Shown: in pieces, positions 801 to 61,600 of the stretch
Position numbering within the stretch: position 1 is the first letter of the stretch
Layout of the letters: each line of letters opens with the position of its first letter
From: Chondrosia reniformis
Lineage: Eukaryota; Porifera; Demospongiae; Chondrillida; Chondrillidae
DNA: 64,000 nucleotides
Reading direction: 5' to 3'
Assembly (NCBI GenBank): GCA_947172415.1
Contig: OX359196.1
Coordinates: 4,156,501-4,220,500, forward strand
The notes under the pieces: model-generated
The model's input: only the letters and a program-made list of their open reading frames with translations
Databases searched by the model: none
Told to the model about the DNA's origin: nothing
Translations under genes and position numbers: made by a program

Positions 801-2049
801 AAGGCATGTAAAACATCAGTTATACCATCATCTTTCTGTGAATGGCCTTATCTATCCATTGCAATCTGGTTTTCGCCCTGGCCACTCCACCACCACATCT
901 TTGTTATTTTGTACCGATACTTGGTCCAAAGCCCTTGATTCTGGGAAGTTTGTAGCCACTCTGTTCATTGACGTGTCTAAAGACTTTGACACAGTAAATC
1001 ACTCACTTCTTCTCAGCAAACTCACCAACCTGGGTCTTGATCCATCTACTGTGCAATGGTTTAGATCCTACCTAGCCAATCGTTCCCAATCCACTCATGT
1101 GGAAGGTCACACCTCTACCTCTCGACCTCTGTCTTCAGGAGTTCCCCAAGGATCCATCCTAGGCCCTTCCCTCTTCTCGGCTTTCATTAATGATTTACCT
1201 GATACCATCACTGACGCTACCACCGTCCTATTTGCCGATGACACCACTATATTCGTTGCAGGCCATGATATCTCAAATATTACCAACACCCTGCAGAACT
1301 GTCTTAACCTTGTTAATCTTTGGATGAAATCCAATGGTCTCAAGTTAAACCCACTGAAGACCAACTCCATGCTACTCCACTCTAGTCGTAAGACTAATCT
1401 TCCACCACTTAACCTCTCCTTGGACGGTCACACTATTAAGCAAGTTCGAGTCTACAAATTTCTTGGTATCCAAATTAACGACACCCTGACCTGGAAGGAC
1501 CATATTGACTTTATCATTTCCAAAGCTTCTCGGCAGATCAACCTCTTACGGAGGCTATCTTGGTTCCTTCCAACACCCTTGAGGATTTTATTCTACAAAT
1601 CCTACATTATGCCTATCTTTGATTACTGTGATGTTGTGTGGCAGCGATGTACATCCCAGGAATCAACTAGACTAGAGCGTCTCCACAATCTAGCCATCAA
1701 AACCATTCTACACAAGAGTCGCTCTGACTCCGCCTCTGCCGTCAGACAACAGCTCGGGGTTACATCCTTGGAACATAGAAGGCGTCTCCACTTGGCACAG
1801 CAAGTTTTCAAATCTGTCAAGGGCATACACCCGCCTTATCTTAAAGACCTATTTAAACCCCCCACCCACCACTACCACACAAGAGGGAGTGCATCTGACT
1901 TCAACCTTCCTCCTGTGAAAACCAACATGGGCAAACAGTCCTACACCTACCGCGGCACCTCCATCTGGAGATCACTTCCAACAGATGCAAAGACAGCCTC
2001 AACCCTGGCCACATTCTCAGTGCTTGCTGGTAATTCTATAAACAGTTAA
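688..2049 (+). pseudogene. Reverse transcriptase ORF, C-terminal frame (disrupted)
   Basis: Homology begins about codon 20 with an NYRPISILP motif; residues before that are out-of-frame read-through. The RT core follows in normal order: a QSGFRPGHST block, a DVSKDFDTVNH block carrying the first catalytic Asp, GVPQGSILGP, and FADDTTIF carrying the catalytic Asp pair. The thumb and a C-terminal YRGTSIWRSLP block end in a TAA at 2049. Apart from the 16 bp duplication upstream the frame is open, so the copy looks young. It cannot make a full-length protein in this state unless the break is an assembly error. Confidence 0.87.
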
Positions 2050-2349
2050 CCTATTATTGTTCTTAATTTGACTAAATTTTTTTTAATTTTTTTTAAAATT
2101 TTTTTTATGTATTATACCCACTCCCATTTCCTGTAAATTTGGTATTTATTATTTCCTGTATTATATCTCCCTAATTATTTCTTGTACATGACAATTAGGC
2201 CTTTTATTTTCAACCAGCTTTTCCCCCCTCATGTTCTTATTCCCATCTTACCCTATTTTTGTCATCCCCCATTCTTAATACTGGGTGCCTAGTATAGTAG
2301 CCAATGGCTAAAGGCCTCCCCAGTCTAAATAAGATACTTGACTTGACTT

Positions 2350-2420
2350 GACTTGACAGGGGTGACCCTGGTGAGGTGTGATAAGCTGGGATAAGGGTAT
2401 CATAAAGTATAATACTTATT
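2350..2420 (+). pseudogene. Fragment of EEF1AKMT2 exon 2 and intron 2
   Basis: The bases after the retrotransposon tail closely match 6675-6745, the end of EEF1AKMT2 exon 2 (encoding a GDPGEVW segment) and the first 45 bases of its intron 2. The splice donor that reads GTAAG in the intact gene reads ATAAG here, so the copy could not splice. The missing left part of the exon may lie beyond the 5' end of the retrotransposon. A further partial copy of the intron sequence lies at 6345-6400. Confidence 0.7.
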
Positions 2421-2518
2421 CATTGATCTAATCAGTGTCCACTGTTAGAGTAGATTTCCCACGGTCCTGAATGAAGATGATAAGATTGAATCGGTAACCA
2501 CTGTCAAGAAATTAAACG

Positions 2519-2692
2519 ATGGAGGAGAGACTAGTTAAGGGCGTCCTTCAAAGCAACACGACCGTTCGGTTGCAGGTTGTGGAAGAGCTCTTGACATTCT
2601 TGAGTGATCCCGCCTCGAGTTTGTCTGGATTTGAAGATTTAGATCAGGTGGTAGAAGGGTTGGTGGCATGGCTGTGAAGCAGTCATTTCAAG
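2519..2692 (+). pseudogene. CLASP-like first exon with premature stop
   Basis: From the ATG at 2519 the frame reads MEERLVKGVLQSNTTVRLQV and then a VEELLTFLSD helix and VVEGLVAWL. This resembles the first TOG-type HEAT repeat at the N terminus of CLASP (CLIP-associating protein, a microtubule-end binding protein). After codon 52 an in-frame TGA (2675-2677) stands where CLASP has Asn before a Ser-Ser-x-Tyr-Lys stretch; here the frame continues as SSHFK and then a good splice donor (GTAACG, 2693). No second CLASP exon was seen before 3395. I read it as a detached exon disabled by one nonsense change. A sequencing error in an otherwise functional first exon is possible, but the downstream exons would still be missing. 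Confidence 0.6.
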
Positions 2693-3108
2693 GTAACGTG
2701 AATGGGTCGTGTTGATGTACTAGAAAAGAGGTTTTGCCTTAGGACGCCATTTTAGACCTTGTGTGCAGGACTATTCTCCTTAAGGCAACAGATGTCAATT
2801 GAGTGTCTCGTAAATGACTTCATTGTAAAATCTTTTGAAGAATAAATGCATTATAAATAATAAAGAAAAACTGCCAGTCTTAAATTAGTTTTGATCAGTG
2901 TACATCAAAATTAGCACTTTTATGCGACACTGTTTGCATATGAACATTGTCTCATGTCAGTTGGCGAGTAATTGTGTTATATGCTACAAGTTTAGAATTT
3001 CACTGGCTACTGCAGTACTGTAGTGCACAGTGAATTATACTTGAAGGCATGCTATATATAGCTATATAAATATTGGAGTTGTTGTGTATTCTCAGCAAGT
3101 GTACTTTA

Positions 3109-3275
3109 TCTCCCCCTCTCCCTCCCTCACTCTCCCTCTCCCTCTCTCTCCCTCTTCCTCTCCCTCCCTCTCCCTCTTCCTCTCCCTCCCCCTCACTCTC
3201 CCTCTTCCTCTCCCTCCCCCTTATTCTCCCTCTCCCTCTCCCTCTCCCTCCCCCTCACTCTCCCTCTCCCTCCTT
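3109..3275 (+). repeat. Pyrimidine-strand microsatellite (CCCTCT)n
   Basis: About 165 bases of almost pure C/T on the plus strand, built from interrupted CCCTCT and CCCTCTTCCTCT units. Open frames through it (Leu/Ser/Pro-rich) are a by-product of the repeat. Homopurine-homopyrimidine tracts of this kind can form triplex DNA. Confidence 0.9.
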
Positions 3276-3394
3276 TATGGATTAAAGGTTGTTTATTAAT
3301 AAAGAAAAGTTGACAGAAGATTCACACCAGCTCTCAGGACACACCCACCAGTTCTTAGGACACACCCACTAGCCCCTCCTCTTTCTCTCTGCAG

Positions 3395-3640
3395 TCCCAC
3401 CCTTGCTACTGACTGTAAGCTCTGCTCTGATGACATGTACCTGGTGGACTCGGGTGCGCAGTACTGGGATGGAACAACTGATGTGACTAGAACTGTACAT
3501 TTTGGGTCACCAACCCAGTTTCAAAGGGTAAAACCCTTCAATTATGGGCTGTGAGCTGTATGAACCATGTGGTCTATACTGTCCCATATAGGTTCACTCG
3601 AGTGCTAAAGGGTCACATTGCTCTATCTATGGGAATTAGG
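3395..3640 (+). pseudogene. Aminopeptidase P (XPNPEP-like) exon fragments
   Basis: After a polypyrimidine tract and CTGCAG acceptor (3394), 3395-3527 encodes [20 protein letters not shown] and FGSPTQF, the metal-binding core of Xaa-Pro aminopeptidases with both Asp ligands of the DSGAQY and DGTTDVTR motifs. A donor GTAAAA follows. A second piece from 3592, after an ATATAG acceptor, encodes FTRVLKGHIALSM, the next block of the same enzyme family. After it no proper donor or continuation is visible, and the junction phase between the two pieces does not obviously fit. With no other exons of the gene nearby, this is best read as a gene fragment. Confidence 0.75.
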
Positions 3641-4003
3641 TTTTTTAACTTGCACTTTAAATTTATTATAAGAAGAACTGAATTAAAGTCAAATTTGTAC
3701 TGGGTGGATGAAATGAAGATTGCATCAGCTATCTTACTATAATACACTTCTTGTCACACTTCACTGAACATATTCATTATCAATCAATAAACACTAATAT
3801 TATTACAATACCTTATACATAGAAATTATTGTGGTTTTAATTTTTGAATTTCAACACAATGAAAATTTCTACATACATGGTAGTTTGTAAATAAACATTT
3901 GGAATTGAACTTCAAATTGAAACTGAATAAATTATTGTATAATTAATAAATTCTAATTTCTATAAATTTCAATAAGATGTTCACACTTGTTCTCTAAAAG
4001 TAC

Positions 4004-6190
4004 TCAAAGTACTACTACTCTACTGTTAAAACGATCTGCTATGTAAATGAGTCCATCACTATAAACTGTTACACCAGAAGGACGATTCAATCCAATATCA
4101 GTCACTTCATGGACACACTGTCCATCTTGTGTGAAGATGCTGAGCTTATTAGCATCATATGAAGTTACCACTATATGTCCATCACTTGTGACTGCTATAC
4201 CTCGTGGACCCTTTACAATGCCCTTACCAAACTGCCTAATAAACTGACCATTCTGCTGAAACACTTGAATGCAATCATTTCCTCCATCTGTGACATGCAC
4301 CAAATCATCAGGTGTTATGAGAATGTAATAAGGGTATTTAAACTCTCCTTTAGCTTCACCCTTGTGACCAAACCTGTACAAGAATGTACCTTCTTCTGTA
4401 AATACAGAAACACAATCACCTCCACACTCTGTCACAAATATATGTCCCTCCATGTTAACTGCCATGCCATATGGATTACTAAGTTGACCTCGATCTTTAC
4501 CTTTTCCTCTAAACTGCCTTACAAAATCACCAGCTGCTGTGTAGATACTGATGTAGCCATTCCAATAGTCACTAACTATCACATTCCCTGTTCTACTTAG
4601 TGCTATTCCACACAATGAACCACCATTCTTGACTTTGAAGCTTCTTATAACTTGACCTTGTCTGTTTAGGATAGTCACTTGTCCATTGTTATCTGAACAG
4701 TATAGCAAACCATCCGGACCTACTGCAACACCATAATACAGAGAACCTGATGGATGCTTGAACTCCTGCTTGACTGCAGTAATTACGCTAGTACCAACAA
4801 CCTCCACCTCTACTGGACTGCCCGCTACATCATGTCCTCCAACAGACACACTCAGATGGCACTTCTCTGATGGAACACTTGCAAACTGCACTTCATATGT
4901 GCCATCTCTCATGTCTGCTACTTTACCAAACACAGGAACACCTGCTGTCACAGGACGAAGGACAGCCAACACTTTCTCTCCTCCTCTGCACTCATTGTTT
5001 CTCTCGTCTCTTGTCATCACCGTCAAGTTAAGAGGTTTCTTGGCAAAGCTTCTGCAGGTAATGACGTTATCCCTCATGCTCACTTTCACTCCTTCCATAA
5101 TGCAGTTTGGTGGATGGGGACTGTGATAGATGCTTCCAAGTGTTGAGATGTACTTTTCCACTTCTTCTTGATCACAGCTCTTCAGACCAACAGAAGGTTG
5201 GATGGAGGCTCTTGGCATTGAGATACTGCTGCTGAGAGATGACATGCGACTGACAATCTTCTTTGTCACTGATAACTGCTCTTCTGTTGTTCCATTCAAA
5301 CTCATCTCTTCTGACAGGCAAAGGAATGCATCAAGCTTTTTCAGACTGACCTTCAATTCTCTCTCGCGTCTCTCAAGTTCTCTTCTTCCCTTGTCTTCTG
5401 CTTCCCTCACTTCAGCAGCAAGACCATCACAGCGGGCTGTCACCATGGCAAACAGATGCTCCTTAATTCCAGCAATCTCTCCTAACGCATTCTCAGACTG
5501 CTGTTGGAGACTAGCTTTGCTGTCCTGCACTTCTTGGAGAGCAGATCTGATTGCCTTCCTTTGAGTCCTCACGGATGAAAGGCACTGCGTCAGAGTGGTC
5601 TTGTTGGACTCTCCCAGCACATCGTCAATGTACGACACTTCATGAGAATGGTGAGGCAGGATCGATCGACATTTGTGACAAATCATTTCTTCACAAGTGT
5701 GACAGTAAAGTTCGCAATTCTTACTGTATTTTGAGCATTTGAACAAATCTTCTTTCTTACCGCCTTGCTCAAACATTCCTTGCAACGGCTTCATTTCGTG
5801 TTTCCTTAAGAGCTTGTGAGATTTGTGTTCATCGACGCATTCCTGGCAAATGAACGCATCGCAATTCGAGCAGAAACTTACGGCCGATCTCTCTTCTTCG
5901 TGTTCCCCCTGACAGATGACGCCCTCTTTCTGGTACTGGTTGCTCAAAGCCTTCCTCAGAGCGAACGGATGGTCAGAAAGATCCTTGAGAGACAAGGAGA
6001 ACACTTCCTCGCAAATTTGGCAGGAGACGCTGCGATGAAGAATCTTCTCTCGACATTCTACTTTCTCGCACAAAGCTAACGAGTGGAGACATGGTAGACA
6101 TTTCAACTCTTTTACTTTCTCTCCGCAACCGACACAAGAAAGACTAAGCTCGCTGGACTGAAGGGGTGGGATCACTGGAAGCTCCGCCAT
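4004..6190 (-). CDS. TRIM-NHL protein (RING, two B-boxes, coiled coil, filamin, NHL repeats)
   Basis: A single-exon 728-residue protein. Residues 19-60 carry a RING-like Cys/His cluster. B-box 1 spans about 93-125 (C93, H97, C107, C110, C115, C118, H122, H125) and B-box 2 about 152-183. A helical coiled-coil region covers about 195-300, a filamin/ABP280 immunoglobulin-like domain about 360-465 ending in GGHDVAGSPVEVEV, and the C terminus (470-728) is a run of about six NHL repeats, expected to form a beta-propeller. This is the TRIM2/TRIM3/TRIM71 architecture: RING ubiquitin ligases whose NHL propeller binds RNA or protein partners. The RING is somewhat irregular, so ligase activity is not certain. 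The start at 6190 gives MAELPVIPPL directly before the RING. Large intronless TRIM genes are typical of expanded families. No specific orthologue can be assigned. Confidence 0.93.
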   Translation of the reverse strand: MAELPVIPPLQSSELSLSCVGCGEKVKELKCLPCLHSLALCEKVECREKILHRSVSCQICEEVFSLSLKDLSDHPFALRKALSNQYQKEGVICQGEHEEERSAVSFCSNCDAFICQECVDEHKSHKLLRKHEMKPLQGMFEQGGKKEDLFKCSKYSKNCELYCHTCEEMICHKCRSILPHHSHEVSYIDDVLGESNKTTLTQCLSSVRTQRKAIRSALQEVQDSKASLQQQSENALGEIAGIKEHLFAMVTARCDGLAAEVREAEDKGRRELERRERELKVSLKKLDAFLCLSEEMSLNGTTEEQLSVTKKIVSRMSSLSSSISMPRASIQPSVGLKSCDQEEVEKYISTLGSIYHSPHPPNCIMEGVKVSMRDNVITCRSFAKKPLNLTVMTRDERNNECRGGEKVLAVLRPVTAGVPVFGKVADMRDGTYEVQFASVPSEKCHLSVSVGGHDVAGSPVEVEVVGTSVITAVKQEFKHPSGSLYYGVAVGPDGLLYCSDNNGQVTILNRQGQVIRSFKVKNGGSLCGIALSRTGNVIVSDYWNGYISIYTAAGDFVRQFRGKGKDRGQLSNPYGMAVNMEGHIFVTECGGDCVSVFTEEGTFLYRFGHKGEAKGEFKYPYYILITPDDLVHVTDGGNDCIQVFQQNGQFIRQFGKGIVKGPRGIAVTSDGHIVVTSYDANKLSIFTQDGQCVHEVTDIGLNRPSGVTVYSDGLIYIADRFNSRVVVL

Positions 6191-53637: not shown

Positions 53638-53739
53638 TTATATATGTCATGCGCAAAGTCTGCGCAAAGCGTTAATCCACGGTTTGCGCAGGCCAATCTG
53701 TGGATTGTCCGAATCTGTACTTTGCGCATAACATATATA
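53638..53739. repeat. Small hairpin next to the nested transposon's left end
   Basis: TATATATGTCATGCGCAAAG at the left pairs with CTTTGCGCATAACATATATA at the right; TGCGCA motifs recur between. The nested transposon begins at the TA that closes this hairpin, so the hairpin may have been its insertion target. Confidence 0.6.
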
Positions 53740-54196
53740 GAGTAAGTGATTGAAATTCGGACACCAGGTTAAATCGGACACTTGTACAACTGCTTCTAAA
53801 GCCTAAACGAGGTTTCTTGTGCATGATCTCATACCCCGTGGTCCTGCTAATTTGCCGACCAACTTTGGTACGCTGAGCTTTAGCAACACGGGAGCAAAGC
53901 ACCATTAACGACGATGTCCGGATGTAGGGAACATCGGACATATTAACTAAGCGTCGGACAAAAGCGATTTTATTCTACTTAAGACTCACAAATTGCTCTC
54001 CTTACACGTAAAACTTATTCGAGAGCTTTACAAAGGTTTTGGAAACCAATTTAACGCCACGTGGGCGGTTAAGGTTGACTGATGACGTCATTAAAATGGA
54101 GGGCGAAAATTGTCGATTAGGTTTCTAAGCTGAAAATTACCCTTTGACCTGTACCGAAGTTTCTTCGAGCATTTACTACGCATGCGCAAAAGATTT
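53740..54196 (+). repeat. Left terminal inverted repeat, 457 bp
   Basis: Matches 60086-59629 in reverse with few differences (for example GACTGATGACG against GACTAGATGACG). It contains a short palindrome around CCGATGTTCCCTACATCCGG and an open frame of about 50 codons that also appears, inverted, in the other end. The frame starts inside the repeat and has no known relatives that I recognise. Confidence 0.92.
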
Positions 54197-54398
54197 CCAA
54201 AAGATTATAATAGCAGTTTTAGGTTTCGCAACAGTCATGTATATATATAAGCTATTTTGCTAGAGAGGAAAAAACTACAGTTGATATATAATACACTGCA
54301 TTTCTATCCAGTTTGGACTGTGAATAATTTAATTCATGCTTATTTTGCACTGATAGGAAAGGAATATAGCTAAACATTTTCAATCTTTGCAGACACAC

Positions 54399-54448
54399 AA
54401 TTGTGAGCGCCGCCAGTAAAAATCGCAGTGCTGGCGGCACTCACAATT
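54399..54448. repeat. GC-rich hairpin downstream of the protease-PHD exon
   Basis: AATTGTGAGCGCCGCCAG (54399-54416) pairs with CTGGCGGCACTCACAATT (54431-54448) with one mismatch. It lies about 120 bases past the stop codon of the transposon gene on the minus strand and could act in 3'-end formation or simply be another tiny foldback. Confidence 0.7.
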
Positions 54449-54566
54449 ACTAAAAAGCAATTTTGGCCACTGTCAAAGTCCAAAATTAAGTAAGGAAGTA
54501 TAAGTTTACATAATAGCTTCTGTTTGTTATAGCTAAGCAAAAACAGTCTACTATTGAAAGGTTAAG

Positions 54567-55516
54567 TCATAAAAATTCAGCAGGCTTGCAGAAAGAAACA
54601 ATATCATCTCCTGTTAAGCATTTTGAGCACTTCCACATCTCAGGGACTGGATACTTCACACCCACACATGAAAAGTGATACCAGCGTTTACAACATCCAC
54701 TGCATTGTACCATTTCAGTATCGTAGTCTGCAGGCATTCTGCATACACAGTAGAGTTTGAAACTCTGTATTTTGCTAACAGTTCGCTGAACAGTTCTGGA
54801 GCTTCTAGGAAACGCACTCATTTTGCCATCTTGAAAACACTGGAACAAATGTTTACGTGCTCTCTTTTGATCAAAAGCAACACTTGTGACATCATTTCCA
54901 AGGCAGGTTTCGGTTGCATATACCATGCAGTACACCCCACAGTCCACTGCACCTTGTTGTTGCTGAACTGAGAGCTTTTTGACCTTCAGAGAACTTGATG
55001 GAGCAACAGAATAGGCTTTGCAAATTTGCAAAACTGTCTTTCTGTTCAGGGGCAGAGAAGTTCCTAGACTGTCCATAACATGGATCATTCCTCTACTACC
55101 AACTGTTGAGATGCAAATCCAGTGATTTGTACTTCCTATATAAAATATATATAACACAAAATGCAGGACTGCATGCATGAGTATACACAATGTCACATAT
55201 ATACAGTCAATAATATACCTGTATGAAATATCTGAACACTGTCAAACTTTACTGATATTGGCTCAAATTTCAGCCGATATCCTAAACGAGTGCTTTGGAA
55301 CCCATGAATATGATTGAACTGATTTTTCAACAGCTTCTGTCCTGCATTAATGATACGATCATTTAATTCTTTCCCAGAAAGCAGTATTTCTCACTCCTGT
55401 GATGTCAAATCTAAATCCTTTTGCCACCATGTTGCTGATGTATATTCAGATTCATCAGTTTCAGATGAAACCTCGATTGCTGTAGCCTTATATAGTTCAC
55501 CCTCCTGGTCAACATC
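54567..55516 (-). pseudogene. Ulp1/SENP-type protease plus PHD finger exons of the transposon
   Basis: Exon 55516-55219 (phase 1 in and out) encodes the region before the active site: LLSGKELNDRIINAGQKLL and NHIHGFQSTRLGYRLKF. Exon 55135-54567 encodes the active site: His in STNHWICIS, Asp in IHVMDSLG, Gln in VQQQQGAVDCG and the nucleophile Cys in the same DCG motif. These are the four residues of clan CE C48 cysteine proteases, which cleave SUMO or related modifiers. A C4HC3 PHD finger follows (LYCVCRMPAD...MVQCSGCCKRWYHFSCVGV...WKCSKC), a module that reads histone H3 tails. The first exon has an in-frame TGA at 55391-55393, just before LLSGKEL. This copy would therefore stop before the protease unless the base is polymorphic or wrong, so I mark it as disrupted. 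Confidence 0.85.
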
Positions 55517-55671
55517 TATATTATTTATCAGAAACTGGTCATTTTATACAAAACTCACTAAACCTAAATTGTATATATATACATCCAAGAACTGATCACT
55601 TGATCACGATCCAATTATATAAACAAAAGCTTTGTATGCTTTATATATATGCAAGCAGGTTTTCTCCTTAC

Positions 55672-56556
55672 CGGCAACACCATTCTTCTGTTTTAGGACA
55701 CCTCTGGTGGAGATATTCCGCCCACCCCTAAGGGTGGTGGAAGGAGCCTTTTTCTTTGTCACACCCATCAGGCCAACATCAGATTCTGTAGTAACTACAA
55801 AAAGGAGTTACAAAGACATACTATAGATATATATGTACATGCACATGTATAGTTAACATGCACCATGCAGCCTTTTCCTATAGCTAGTCACACCATTCTC
55901 TTGTTTCAGGCTCTGCTTACTTGATTTGACCTTCACATCGCCACTTGGGTTGGTGGGTGAGATGGACACTTTCTTTCTCAGATCAGTCACTCCAACATCT
56001 GCATGCATAAAACAGGAATGCTTTTCCATTCAAGCATGCAAGCCATTAAGCACCGTGCAAATTTTCCTTACCACTCGTCTGTTTCAGGTCTTGTTTACTT
56101 CCAGACTTCGTTTTCAATTTATTTGAGCTCGGGAGAGAGATGGATGTCTCATTTCTCACTTCAGTTACTCGACCATCTGCAAAGGTAACAATGAAAGGAT
56201 TTCCATATATATAAGCAAGTTATATATATTACATCCCAGTATTCCTTACCAATGTCACCAGTCTTCTGTTTCAGGCGTTGTTTACCTCTTGATTTGATTT
56301 CCACTTCATCACATGGGCTGGATGCTTCCTTTTTCACATTAGTAATTCCAATTGCAACATCTGTGTATATAAAATGGAACAGGAATATCATACTTAAGCT
56401 ATATGCATGCACAATCTACACAATGCATGCATCTAATAGATTTTTCCTTACCAGTGCCACCTTTCTTCTGCCTCAGGCCCTGTCTACTTCTGAACTTGAC
56501 TTCATTCAACTGATCACCTAGGCTGGTAGAAGGGATGGTTGCAGATTCCTCTTCCT
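55672..56556 (-). CDS. Five tandemly repeated phase-1 exons of the transposon gene
   Basis: Exons 56556-56452, 56360-56250, 56176-56072, 55998-about 55885 and 55785-55672 are 105-114 bases, start after ATCTGT/CTCTGT-type acceptors (read on plus) and end at G|GTAAGG donors, all phase 1 to phase 1. Each encodes a 35-38 residue unit: a hydrophobic-acidic start (DVAIGITNVKKE type), a Ser/Pro middle and a basic end of the pattern K-Q-x-L-K-Q-K-x-G. They connect the transposase exon (phase 1 donor at 56622) to the protease exon (phase 1 acceptor at 55517). In the fourth unit the donor has decayed to AGCTATAGG; because the exon is symmetric it can be skipped without a frameshift. The function of the unit is unknown; a basic flexible linker is one reading. 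Confidence 0.8.
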
Positions 56557-56622
56557 CTGTATACACAAGAGCATGAACAAACTATAAAAATGTCATACAT
56601 ATAACATATAATATAAACATAC

Positions 56623-58249
56623 CTTGTGATGACTTTTTCATGGTCTGCTTTGTTTTCCTTGTGCCTTTCCCCGCATTCTTTTTCTTTTCCTTATCTTGTA
56701 AGCACTTCAGATTTTCTTGGCTTGTAAGCACTCTTGCACAAGCCTTTTTCTCAAGGTAAGGCCCCTTAGAAGGAGGTGATGGTATTTTCAAAATGCCATG
56801 CAATGTTTTTTCACAACCTATAGATAGGGGCATGTGTTGCTCATTCCCGTCTAATTCATCTGCAGGGAGTTGAATCATTGACACTTGAGGCATGTCATCA
56901 CTGGAATCAGAATAGCACGATTCATCTAAAGTATGATCAATTTGATCAAACTTTCCACGCTTAGACGGAGTATAGAGTGGAATAAATGAAAGGCGTGTCC
57001 TCTCAGACAGCGAAAGCCTTGTTTCTGGTACTCCAGGCAAACTAATGGCATCTCTGTTTACTGGATACACTCCAGTTGTACGAAAGCCTGACACTATATT
57101 CCGAATAGTCATAGCCTCAGTCCAGGATTTGTTGAACAACTTTGAGAATATGTAGCGATGAATAATTTGTCCAGGGTTACTGGCCATGTAGTCATGACAT
57201 ACCTTCCTCCAAGCCATCTTTAATGGACCAAATATCCCCTTATCCAATGGTTGGCTCAAGTGGGTAGTATTTGGAGGCAGGACAAATAACAGCACCTGCT
57301 CCTCAGCGGCCATTGTAATGGCCTCGGGGGAATAATGAGAGGTATGGCCATCAAGTAAGATGAGTAATGGCCTTACAGGTGGTGCATAACGCAAAAAATG
57401 CCTCTTGAACCACTTCTCAAAGTGATGTTGGTCCATCCAACCTTTCCCTGAAAGACCATATATGGTTCCAGGTACTTCTCCTATTGTTAGTTCAGGTCTC
57501 AGTTGCTTCCGATCCCAAATCACCATGGGGGGCAAACATTGCCCTGCAGCGTTTACGCATGCTACAATGGTAATTTGGGTCTTCATTGAAGATGTCATGG
57601 CAAATGCGTTTTTTGTTCCTTTTTCATGAATCGTCTTTAAAGGCTTAGGCGCAAGAGGCATACCGCTTTCATCCATGTTATAGATTTGGCAAGGACTGTC
57701 TTTCAGATTATTTTCTACTAATGTTTCTTCTAAAAGATCAAAATAATGATCTAATACAGCCCTGTTTGAGGCCATTGCCCTTGGTTTTGATAAGGAAGCA
57801 GGGATCCTAAGGGAGAGATTAGGGTGCCTCTTTTTGAAGGCTTCCCACCAACCATAAGAAATAGGACGATAAGTTCCTCGAGCTGCCAGAATCCGCTGAA
57901 CTACCGCAAGAATCTCCTTCACCGTCTTTGCATACCCAATAGTGGCACAACCAATGATAAAGGACACAAGTTCCTGTTCTTCATCATCAGTTAGATACCT
58001 TGAATTTGTACCACCACCAAGTATCTTTCCACTAATTCGGTCTCCAAGCGTACTCTTGGGGATACCATAAGCTTCGGCAGCTTGTCGTATAGTGGCTCCA
58101 TCGCAACAAACAGCCTTAACTGCTCTTTCTAGCTTTTCGGAATCCCATGCTTTATAACGTCCTTGCCTAGATGGCAACACATTTAGAGGCTTATGCTCTA
58201 CTTCACATGCTGAATTGGAATACAGCACTCTTTGGCTAAGAGGTAACAT
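56623..58249 (-). CDS. pogo/Jerky-type DDD transposase, first exon
   Basis: This exon gives 542 codons and ends at CAAG|GTATGT in phase 1; reading on would stop 13 codons later. Residues 30-75 form a Psq-type helix-turn-helix (ERAVKAVCCDGATIRQAAEA YGIPKSTLGDRISG), residues 85-150 a CENP-B-like second DNA-binding domain, and 185-380 a DDE superfamily catalytic core: D193 in YNMDESG, D300 in LILLDGHTSH and D336 in QPLDKGIFGPLK (DD35D). All three acidic residues are intact, so this copy could be active. The C terminus is Lys-rich (KKKNAGKGTRKTKQTMKKSS), a likely nuclear signal. The same exon structure continues into the repeat and protease exons, so the full protein is probably about 1,000 residues. 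Confidence 0.93.
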
Positions 58250-58799
58250 CTAAAAAACAAATGTTTAACAAAAAATGAAAGTGCATGCAGTAGTCCTTGG
58301 CAGAGTTTTAATTATCAATGATTAGTATAATATAGGGATGACCAGATAGTGCATGCACTGCATGGAATATTGGTAAAATTAATAAGATAATCGCAGACTG
58401 GGAATTAACCTTAACACCTGTGTTTCTGTTGTCACAACCACATGACATTTATGCATGCTTTGTAGTCATAGTAATATCATGTACTTCCTTAATTTCAAGG
58501 GACTTAATTTTCACAGAATGCGTTCTATGCATATTTATTACTTTTTTTTGGAATAAATTGTGTTTAGAAGCATTATACTATGAAATTATACTAAAAAGGT
58601 GATTTCATTGATATATATTTATGGATGTTTCTTGACCCTAGCTGATCAACAATTAGCAATATATATAATATATCAGGCAGCTAGTTTTCTCACAATGCAA
58701 ATATGTAAAGACTGATTGTGAAGCTTAATTTGAGGTTGCAGTGCATGCATAAAATAAAAATTCTTTTTATCCTTCAATCAAGAGCTGTGAATTAACCTA

Positions 58800-59079
58800 C
58801 AGTGAATCCTCGGTTATCCGAACCCCATTGGTCAAATGGCACAAAAATTTTGTTCGGATAAGTGAAATACAATCAAATATGTAGAACAGTAGAACGATTT
58901 CTTATTTGTTCTCTTTCACTTAGGCTTCGCAGTACTAGAAGACTCCGCCATCCTTGATCGAGCAAAAAACATTAGCGCGACTGAAACGTGTCACATTTGC
59001 ATACGTTGGTATCATAATTGTGTGATCCACGTGTCACGTGCAAGGTAATTTTGTGATCTGGATAATCGAGGATTCACTA
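58800..59079. mobile_element. MITE inside the transposon
   Basis: CAGTGAATCCTCGGTTATCC at the left and TAGTGAATCCTCGATTATCC in reverse at the right bound 280 bp, with TA at the left edge. It is a separate pogo-like MITE that landed about 550 bases upstream of the transposase start codon. Confidence 0.75.
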
Positions 59080-59128
59080 TATATATAAAATCTTTTTATG
59101 CTTGAACAAAAGGGTTGTGAAGTTTAGT

Positions 59129-59575
59129 GATTAGAGGCAGTGTTAAGAACCAATTAGGACTAACTTTTTTAACCTACCAAGCAAACGAAACCTCTGACTC
59201 AAATTTGAACTTGTGACAAACAGCAACAAACAGTCTTTATAGGATCTACATTTAGATATATTAAACAAAAAGATTAGAGGCAGTGTGAAGAACAAATTAT
59301 AGGACTAATTTTTTAACCTACCAAGTAAAGACACCTCTGACTTAACTTGTGACAAACAGCAACAAACAGCCTTTAGGATCTACAGTTAGACAATTTAAAC
59401 AAAATGATTAGAGGCAGTGTGAAGAACAAATTATAGGACTAATTTTTTAACCTACCAAGTAAAGACACCTCTGACTTAACTTGTGACAAACAGCAACAAA
59501 CAGCCTTTAGGATCTACAGTTAGACAATTTAAACAAAATGATTAGAGGCAGTGTGAGAAAATTGGGACTAACCTA
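59129..59575. repeat. Tandem repeat of about 135 bp, four units
   Basis: Four direct units start GATTAGAGGCAGTGT at 59129, 59272, 59406 and 59540; the second and third are nearly identical and the last is truncated. They lie just inside the right terminal inverted repeat. Subterminal direct repeats often bind transposase in other DNA transposons; that role here is inference. Confidence 0.88.
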
Positions 59576-59628
59576 CCAAGCAGAAAATCTTCATATGAAA
59601 AACTTTAAAAACCGCAAGGGAGGCATGC

Positions 59629-60086
59629 AAATCTTTTGCGCATGCGTAGTAAATGCTCGAAGAAACTTCGGTACAGGTCAAAGGGTAATTTTCAGCTTAG
59701 AAACCTAATCGAAAATTTTCGCCCTCCATTTTAATGACGTCATCTAGTCAACCTTAACCGCCCACGTGGCGTTAAATTGGTTTCCAAAACCTTTGTAAAG
59801 CTCTCGAATAAGTTTTACGTGTAAGGAGAGCAATTTGTAAGTCTTAAGTAGAATAAAATCGCTTTTGTCCGACGCTTAGTTAATATGTCCGATGTTCCCT
59901 ACATCCGGACATCGTCGTTAATGGTGCTTTGCTCCCGTGTTGCTAAAGCTCAGCGTACCAAAGTTGGTCGGCAAATTAGCAGGACCACGGGGTATGAGAT
60001 CATGCACAAGAAACCTCGTTTAGGCTTTAGAGGCAGTTGTACAAGCGTCCGATTTAACCTGGTGTCCGAATTTCAATCACTTACTC
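59629..60086 (-). repeat. Right terminal inverted repeat, 458 bp
   Basis: The inverted partner of 53740-54196. It ends CGAATTTCAATCACTTACTC followed by TA. Confidence 0.92.
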
Positions 60087-61600
60087 TAGTGACACTATAT
60101 TACGGCTCATGATCAAGATCCAAGAGATGCAATAAATACACACCAACAAGTTATAGGAAGCTACAAACACTAACATTTTACTAACATAACGGTTTACTAA
60201 CTTAAAGGTTATGCTGGGCACGATCCTCAGAAGCAGGACTTCCTATTAGATGGTTTGGTACGAGTGGTTTTAGGACAGTTAAAATGAACAACTACCAAAT
60301 GGATAAATCATTCGCTTAGATCAATCAGGTTTAAGGCCACTTTTATCGACCTTTGAATAGTTGAAAAAATAGGAGCGCAATGAGCTAGCTATATAGCGGG
60401 CGGAACCGAAATTCACTTGAGACTACTGTACGTACGATCCGCTGGACATCTGTAGCTATTTTATGTAGCTAGATACTTATGACTTACGTTAATTTTGTTC
60501 ACTGTACTATATTATCGTTTTATCGTATTAGTTTCGTCTCGTCTTTAGTTTAACTGTCCGCTTTCGGAGGTCAGTATGTATTGTCAGAGATCAGTCTGAG
60601 GCTTGGTCAGTGTCCGTTGTCCGGAGTTCGGAGGTGCCGCTACTCGGAGGTTCGGAATGTACTAGTTCTATGGGAAAGTCAATCGGGGGCGTAAGATTTG
60701 TCCGCTGTACAGAGGTTGTCCGCTTTTCGGAGAGTCCGCTATTAGAGGTTTTACTGTATAGAAAATGAAAGAAAAATTATTTTTAATATGTACAGTTGTG
60801 TATATGAAACACATACGTAAATACATTGTATATTCTGTCAGAGAAAAGTGAATCTGACTCTTTGAGAAATTAGAAGGTTCTGAGAAGTTAAAACACAATC
60901 CATCACATCACAAATGGGATCTGTTATATTTCAGTTTAAATAATGATCAATATTGTAGATTTGTTTACATAATTTAATGTAGTTACTTTCCTTTTGTGCT
61001 TTGTCCTAGCTGTTTATTAATTTGTTAAATGAAAGTAATTTATTTTTAAAAGGAAGTCCAGTTATACCATCTATATATGAGTGCACATAAATACTTTGTA
61101 TATATACATATATACCTATACTGAAAAGTGAATCTGTTTTAATTTCATCTACAAAAATTATGCAAGTTATGGTAAAGCTATACACCAGCACCTTCAGTCA
61201 TTAGAAAACTCCTTTGATCATGCAAACCATGCTTCAACTCCTACATACAGATTATATATCACAAGGTAAACATATATACTACAAATATACACAATAATCA
61301 AACCACAGATGTTTATGTTTACGTAAATATACATGTATATACGTACTATATAGATAAAGAGCCAATGACATTTGATTAATTGGACTACAACAACAATCAC
61401 AGTAATTGTCGAGGCCATGCAAAATCCAATGTCTCTCTCAAAATAATGAAAGGATTTCTTTGACTTTCTGTGTACTTAAATCTCTCAGACATATAGGACT
61501 CATCAGACTATACTAGTTGCATTCTAATACAATAAGCTTGTATATACGTATATATGACTATGTTTACTTTCAGATATAGGCTACCCTATATATTTTGCAT

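Follow-up and report, generated by a model that had tools for sequence, protein, structure and literature searches.

Can a DNA transposon of the pogo type encode its transposase, a SUMO-type protease, and a PHD finger in one gene? The question is raised by an element at positions 53740-60086 of a 64,000-nucleotide stretch of the genome of the sponge Chondrosia reniformis (assembly GCA_947172415.1, contig OX359196.1, positions 4,156,501 to 4,220,500), which we refer to here as the window. An earlier note, made from the letters of the window alone, had described a TA-flanked element with long inverted ends in which a transposase is joined by exons to a two-exon Ulp1 (C48) protease and a PHD finger. 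We found this anatomy to be well supported. Tails of the same kind follow related transposases at other loci of the genome, and several sources suggest that transposase and tail form one product.

The element is bounded by terminal inverted repeats of ~460 bp (about 462 bp, 98 to 99% identity), which exceed the length typical of pogo-type elements. Their outer arms (53738-54080 and 59746-60088, including the target TAs) match over 343 nt at 99%, and their inner arms (54081-54199 and 59626-59744) match over 119 nt at 98%.

53740..54199, plus strand: left terminal inverted repeat, starting GAGTAAGTGATTG, with the target TA at 53738-53739 ahead of it
59626..60086, minus strand: right terminal inverted repeat, with the target TA at 60087-60088 behind it

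We searched the 117-Mb genome (15 contigs, by which copies are named here) and recovered seven two-ended copies of the element plus one fragment on C2. TA flanks both sides of all seven, and the adjoining bases differ among copies, so that the TA-flanked ends of the earlier description were borne out. When the flanks of the window copy were fused with a single TA, the resulting sequence matched four other genome sites at full length among the candidates scored, three of them at 100% (208/208 bases) and the fourth scoring slightly less. These matches to unoccupied sites directly demonstrate the element borders and the TA duplication, and they mean that the element inserted into a copy of another repeat. 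The flanks (53639-53739 and 60089-60188) belong to a many-copy repeat with at least 69 matches, for which 40 of 50 candidates were scored; its left part is hairpin-like.

Within these borders, we modelled a gene on the minus strand with the following exons.

56623..58249, minus strand: exon 1, transposase with HTH_psq and DDE_1 domains, DDD triad, 35 residues between the second and third D
56452..56556, minus strand: repeat exon 1, phase 1
56250..56360, minus strand: repeat exon 2, phase 1
56072..56176, minus strand: repeat exon 3, phase 1
55894..55998, minus strand: repeat exon 4, phase 1, with a weak donor (GTGTGA) and an alternative donor at 55921
55672..55794, minus strand: repeat exon 5, phase 1, with its acceptor at 55794 or 55785
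55219..55515, minus strand: exon 7, N-terminal half of the C48 domain, with an in-frame TGA at 55391-55393 in the window copy
54567..55135, minus strand: exon 8, catalytic half of Peptidase_C48 (H, D, Q, C) and the PHD finger, ended by its own stop

All seven modelled introns of the window copy are in phase 1, as would be expected if, as proposed earlier, a single gene in one orientation had compatible splice sites throughout; one proposed acceptor, at 55516, was off by one base and lies at 55515. The five repeat exons are mutually similar and have 35 to 41 codons each. The alternative donor of repeat exon 4 is likewise in phase 1, and its weak donor is retained in both other copies readable there (C7 and C5). 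In the window family and at two further loci, L020 and L034, the donor that separates the C48 exon pair sits at an identical codon. The gene is probably spliced in C. reniformis as modelled. Two additional features lie upstream of the gene. A small TA-flanked element at 58798-59081, resembling a miniature inverted-repeat transposable element, lies nested in the interval from the transposase exon to the right inverted repeat, and a 134-bp unit in tandem (two full, one partial) occupies 59240-59556, directly inside the right inverted repeat.

Exon 1 encodes a pogo-type transposase of the IS630-Tc1-mariner group. The DDE_1 profile matched at 85.5 bits (cut-off, 22), the catalytic motifs are NMDE, DGH, and QPLD with a second-to-third spacing of 35 residues (DD35D), and the N terminus matched HTH_psq at 33.6 bits (cut-off, 20.4). 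DDE_3 (24.8 bits; cut-off, 28.6) and the helix-turn-helix profile HTH_Tnp_Tc5 (15.8 bits; cut-off, 22.2) stayed under threshold, and the rve integrase model, by which a Ginger1 element would be recognized, found no match to the window transposase in the profile scan. The assignment to the pogo type was made from profiles, motifs, the TA target, and the terminal inverted repeats, not from a tree with Tc1 or mariner. DDE_1, the DDD triad, the TA target, and the helix-turn-helix are shared with the pogo superfamily; the seven modelled introns and ends of ~460 bp set the window element apart from known pogo elements in the part of the literature consulted.

The two tail domains also scored above their cut-offs, so that all three profiles named in the earlier note were recovered: Peptidase_C48 at 22.7 bits on exon 8 and 24.2 bits on the joined tail (cut-off, 20.7), and PHD at 27.8 and 27.2 bits, respectively (cut-off, 24). 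In an alignment of 10 tails with the C7 copy as first row, from which L019, L020, L021, and the pieces of L022 were left out, the active-site residues stand in C48 order, with H, Q, and C unchanged throughout and D present in 9 of 10, the nine other tails being 30 to 42% identical to the first row. When a profile of the tails was compared with solved structures, these residues aligned with the catalytic residues of Ulp1-like and SENP1 chains; Ulp1-like and SENP1 structures ranked first, and SENP5, OtDUB, and SENP8 ranked lower. SUMO is the likely partner of the C48 domain. The C4HC3 zinc ligands of the PHD finger line up with those of PHF2 and EBS, with one extra inter-ligand residue in the window family, and its closest solved structures are PHF2, EBS, BPTF, PHF8, and ING1, which are readers of methyl-lysine. 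A Tyr, a Met, and a Trp occupy positions that we take to be those of the ING2 aromatic cage, and methylated H3K4 is the likely ligand of the finger. The removal of SUMO and the reading of histones proposed earlier would be compatible with the residues conserved in the tail.

A transposase and a tail could lie together by chance, or an unrelated C48-PHD gene could have been nested into a pogo element. Across the genome, 94 C48-PHD matches merge to 79 loci, 13 of which lie ≤6 kb downstream of a same-strand psq-type transposase; over 1000 random placements, this number averaged 0.19 and never exceeded 2. The association of psq transposases with C48-PHD tails is non-random. The 13 loci consist of the seven window-family copies and six diverged loci (L017 to L022), whose transposases are 39 to 60% identical over aligned pieces. 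Both transposase and tail lie within clear inverted repeats at L018, L019, and L020 (382 to 388 nt, 88 to 98%) and within short, decayed ones at L021, and the inverted repeats of all four start TA-GAG; the ends of L017 and L022 are unclear, and L022 is fragmented. Accidental neighborhoods do occur. At L037 (C13:4009500-4014500, 2571-4232), apparent integrase remains are followed by a C48-PHD frame, and an unrelated DDE_1 gene adjoins; we first counted this DDE_1 neighbor as pogo-like and rejected it once the frames were read as an integrase-type gene beside an unrelated one. Against an accident in the window family stand the 13 of 79 loci, the recurrence of this layout within the inverted repeats at four diverged loci, and the grouping of psq tails in the reduced tail tree described below. 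We rejected chance or nested insertion on these grounds and consider it extremely improbable.

As for the rest of the 79 loci, an rve integrase precedes the tail at 10 (random placement gave 0.39 on average and 3 at most), L037 is the single one with a DDE_1 neighbor, and 55 have none of the listed transposase types nearby. None of eight Mutator-like element (MULE) matches, which stood outside the scripted count, had a C48-PHD locus within 6 kb when inspected by eye. A search for KDZ elements as a source of the Ulp1 tail found no match, but its controls were silent too.

We also read 20 loci of psq relatives. C48-PHD follows the transposase at six (L017 to L022), a PHD-like stretch was seen by eye in a downstream frame at eight (L023, L025 to L029, L035, and L036), and neither was present in that orientation at six (L024 and L030 to L034). 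Two of the eight PHD-like stretches were scanned and reached 22.3 and 22.4 bits, under the cut-off of 24. Of four loci at which splice pairs from the transposase to the PHD-like stretch were tried, three had them (L023, L026, and L027) and L025 had none. L031 and L034 have C48 pieces on the opposite strand, at L034 with transposase fragments of their own. L034 (C12:2473000-2482900, minus strand, 8248-6543) contains remains of one more psq family, namely, transposase fragments and a C48 exon, which a nested relative of L031 seems to have split. Psq-pogo elements with a PHD-like finger only, namely, LOC135348769 of H. panicea, LOC109582507 of Amphimedon queenslandica, L023, and L027, have HTH_psq and DDE_1, a linker, and a C-terminal finger in common with the window element, the finger being in a separate downstream frame at L023 and L027. 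They differ from it in having no C48 match and in PHD scores of 17.9 to 22.4 bits, below the Pfam cut-off of 24.

Are the transposase and the tail one protein? The element might instead hold two genes, the transposase being made from exon 1 alone and the protease-PHD part being an accessory protein with its own promoter. Left unspliced, exon 1 stays open to 56582 and would give a 555-amino-acid transposase, and the repeat linkers differ between families, by eye, both of which suit two genes. Exon 7, however, is without any in-frame ATG, and the seven introns are all in phase 1. The parts are also united elsewhere. In A. queenslandica, two predicted gene models (P0123 and P0124; LOC109581489 isoforms X6 and X18) place psq, DDE, repeats, C48, and PHD in a single chain, with a linker of many ~25-residue repeats, and the Pfam domains listed for isoforms X14 and X15 are the same. 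By BLASTP, the P0123 tail is 39% identical to the window tail over 246 residues, with His, Asp, Gln, and Cys matched. A length-limited protein search with the window tail alone returned none at E ≤ 0.001 among 968 candidates. In C. reniformis itself, L038 (C6:2991000-2996500, 968-3043, minus strand) is an intronless frame of 692 residues with DDE_1 (53.7 bits), an acidic linker, C48 (22.7 bits; cut-off, 20.7), and a PHD-like finger (22.2 bits, below the cut-off of 24); a separate upstream frame encodes a Brinker-type helix-turn-helix (30.0 bits). Together with the copies and diverged relatives, these chains support the joined transposase-repeats-protease-PHD gene proposed earlier, and two separate genes seem quite unlikely. 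In UniRef, a further predicted A. queenslandica protein, P0127, has a psq-DDE_1 transposase fused to additional Pfam domains, presumably kelch repeats, in which a gene-model error is possible.

We examined the origin of the tail with trees. The 10 rve-linked loci were counted as neighbors and not as joined genes, and the tails of three (L039 to L041) were included. L037, which may be called Ginger1-like from a reading of its frames, has no rve match listed, and its scanned neighbor gave only SH3_Tf2-1, under the cut-off. The tree of 14 tails separates psq from other tails with weak support (44/80); it places the rve-linked L039 in the psq set and the Amphimedon tail outside it. With L022a, L022b, and L039 dropped as fragmentary or long rows, the psq tails, including that of Amphimedon, lie on one side of a branch supported at 97/92, and L037, L038, L031, L040, and L041 lie on the other, where the L038 tail clusters with the integrase-type tails. 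Topology tests, with groups picked after the first tree, did not reject holding the psq tails together (P = 0.289), gave P = 0.032 for holding all DDE_1 carriers together, and rejected holding the four integrase-type rows together (P = 0.0005). These results moderately support a scenario in which the tail was joined to DDE_1 transposases at least two separate times. In a tree of 34 transposases, the gain of C48 takes two changes, and a single origin appears in 27% of bootstrap trees; this tree does not decide whether C48 was gained twice or was gained once and later lost.

The copies bear on whether the tail still matters to its carrier. The earlier note had named full-length copies of the same family lacking the protease and PHD exons as evidence that would refute its reading. 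Six of the seven two-ended copies have these exons, and the seventh, C5, is a deleted copy from which the PHD finger and part of exon 8 are gone; among more remote psq relatives, some carry a PHD-like exon alone and some carry neither part.

A number of observations weigh against a working protease-PHD tail on a transposase. The TGA in exon 7 of the window copy precedes the catalytic residues and was overlooked earlier, so that, of the two-exon protease described then, the H, D, Q, and C residues stand and the open frame does not. Exon 7 is open in one of the seven copies (C7); C1, C9, C11, and C12 have in common a different stop, a few codons beyond the TGA position of the window copy, and C5 has two stops. 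Exon 8 of C7 is open also, yet a 481-bp loss has removed the last part of exon 1 together with the bulk of exon 2. C1, C9, C11, and C12 (L010, L011, L012, and L014) have a common internal deletion and an inversion of the transposase exon, which suggests that they spread in derivative form, as if nonautonomous. No intact copy is present among the seven and the C2 fragment. The recent copies show little purifying selection, and a codon comparison of L018 with L019 and L021 is without clear selection, with ratios of nonsynonymous to synonymous substitution rates of 0.72 and 0.74 for the tail and 0.67 and 0.75 for the transposase. Fourteen of the 20 psq relatives lack a downstream C48 in that orientation, the C48 scores of the window element are low, and Pfam did not call C48 in P0123 or P0124 at E ≤ 1. 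Among loci outside the 10-tail alignment, the active-site His was not found in L020, where a zinc-ligand Cys is Ser, and the PHD finger of L022 is altered too. Finally, the C48 profile also reaches SENP8 and OtDUB, so that specificity for SUMO is putative.

One way to read these data is that the tail is a captured passenger with no present role in transposition. The near-neutrality of recent copies and an exon 7 that is open in one of seven copies fit this explanation, as do inverted-repeat-bounded relatives with a PHD-like exon only or with neither domain and the spread of a derivative without most repeat exons. It accounts poorly for H, Q, and C remaining invariant, and D nearly so, among tails so divergent, and the presence of C48-PHD also after rve integrases and on the DDE_1 type of L038 is hard to explain without use. 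We regard a passenger as unlikely. The exon 7 stops and the PHD loss of C5 concern decay of copies.

SUMO acts in the silencing of transposons in animals. We propose that the product of the pogo element is a chromatin-reading deSUMOylase, tethered to DNA, that aids transposition or blocks SUMO-dependent silencing, a reading that we place slightly on the probable side. The gene, through its seven phase-1 introns, would yield one polypeptide in which a repeat linker connects a psq helix-turn-helix and a DDD transposase to a C48/Ulp1 protease and a PHD finger. The psq domain, by binding the inverted ends, would position the protease at the termini of its own element, and the PHD finger would keep the complex on H3K4-methylated chromatin. 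There, the protease could act on host silencing factors or on the transposase, clearing them of SUMO (or of a related modifier) and so favoring expression or transposition of the element. Retention of intron 1 would give the 555-residue tail-less transposase as a possible second product. The target of the protease might alternatively be the element's own protein, through tail cleavage or SUMO removal, and not host silencing factors. Protease and transposase would share one chain with a long linker, and C48 enzymes perform both precursor processing and deconjugation, but the PHD finger points toward chromatin; we give this alternative a low probability.

Related tails have been described on other mobile elements. 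In the portions of the published accounts that we consulted, Ulp1 is reported on several families of Ginger1, and Ulp1 with PHD on Ginger1-9_HM of Hydra, together with a proposed role in transposition (PMC2836005). Ginger1-9_HM resembles the window element in being a DNA transposon whose transposase carries C-terminal Ulp1 (C48) and PHD domains (PMC2836005). According to the same portions, Ginger1 differs in its integrase-type transposase, zinc finger, and GPY/F motif, in contrast to the pogo-type DDD transposase, psq helix-turn-helix, TA target, and repeat-exon linker of the window element, and the integrase-linked tails of the sponge genome lie mostly apart from the psq tails in the tree. 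Mutator elements with Ulp1 in hydra, lancelet, Arabidopsis, maize, rice, and melon (as cited in PMC2836005) are likewise DNA transposons carrying Ulp1, with a different transposase type, and Cryptons with a C48 peptidase (CryptonF-2_PS and others; PMC3212892) use a tyrosine recombinase, not a DDE enzyme. Ulp1 on a pogo element was not found in the consulted portions of the Ginger (PMC2836005) or Crypton (PMC3212892) literature. The terms "phd," "ulp1," "psq," "protease," and "sponge" have no occurrences in the main text, as consulted, of a paper on the pogo superfamily, which gave rise to CENPB, POGK, and POGZ (PMC7386202). Our literature search, with coverage mostly outside subscription journals, found no description of a pogo or Tigger element with the Ulp1/PHD combination. 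The earlier suggestion that the combination is undescribed on pogo holds within that search; the novelty is narrower than first held because such tails are already in print for Ginger1. What we describe is a conserved transposon gene architecture, with pogo joining the known carriers of this kind of tail.

In this element, a pogo transposase is paired with a PHD finger and a domain resembling SUMO proteases, and related tails are found on another DDE_1 type and beside integrase genes in the same genome. As a tentative extension, in which we have less confidence than in the mechanism above, the deSUMOylase and chromatin-reader tail may be an exchangeable anti-silencing module, joined separately to psq-pogo, Brinker-helix-turn-helix DDE_1, and integrase-type (Ginger1-like) transposases within one sponge genome; SUMO-dependent chromatin silencing would then be a common obstacle for such unrelated transposons in early-branching animals. 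With this element, the idea of a transposon that carries its own countermeasure to SUMO silencing becomes testable, and the recurrence of Ulp1-like domains in transposons gains a possible reason.

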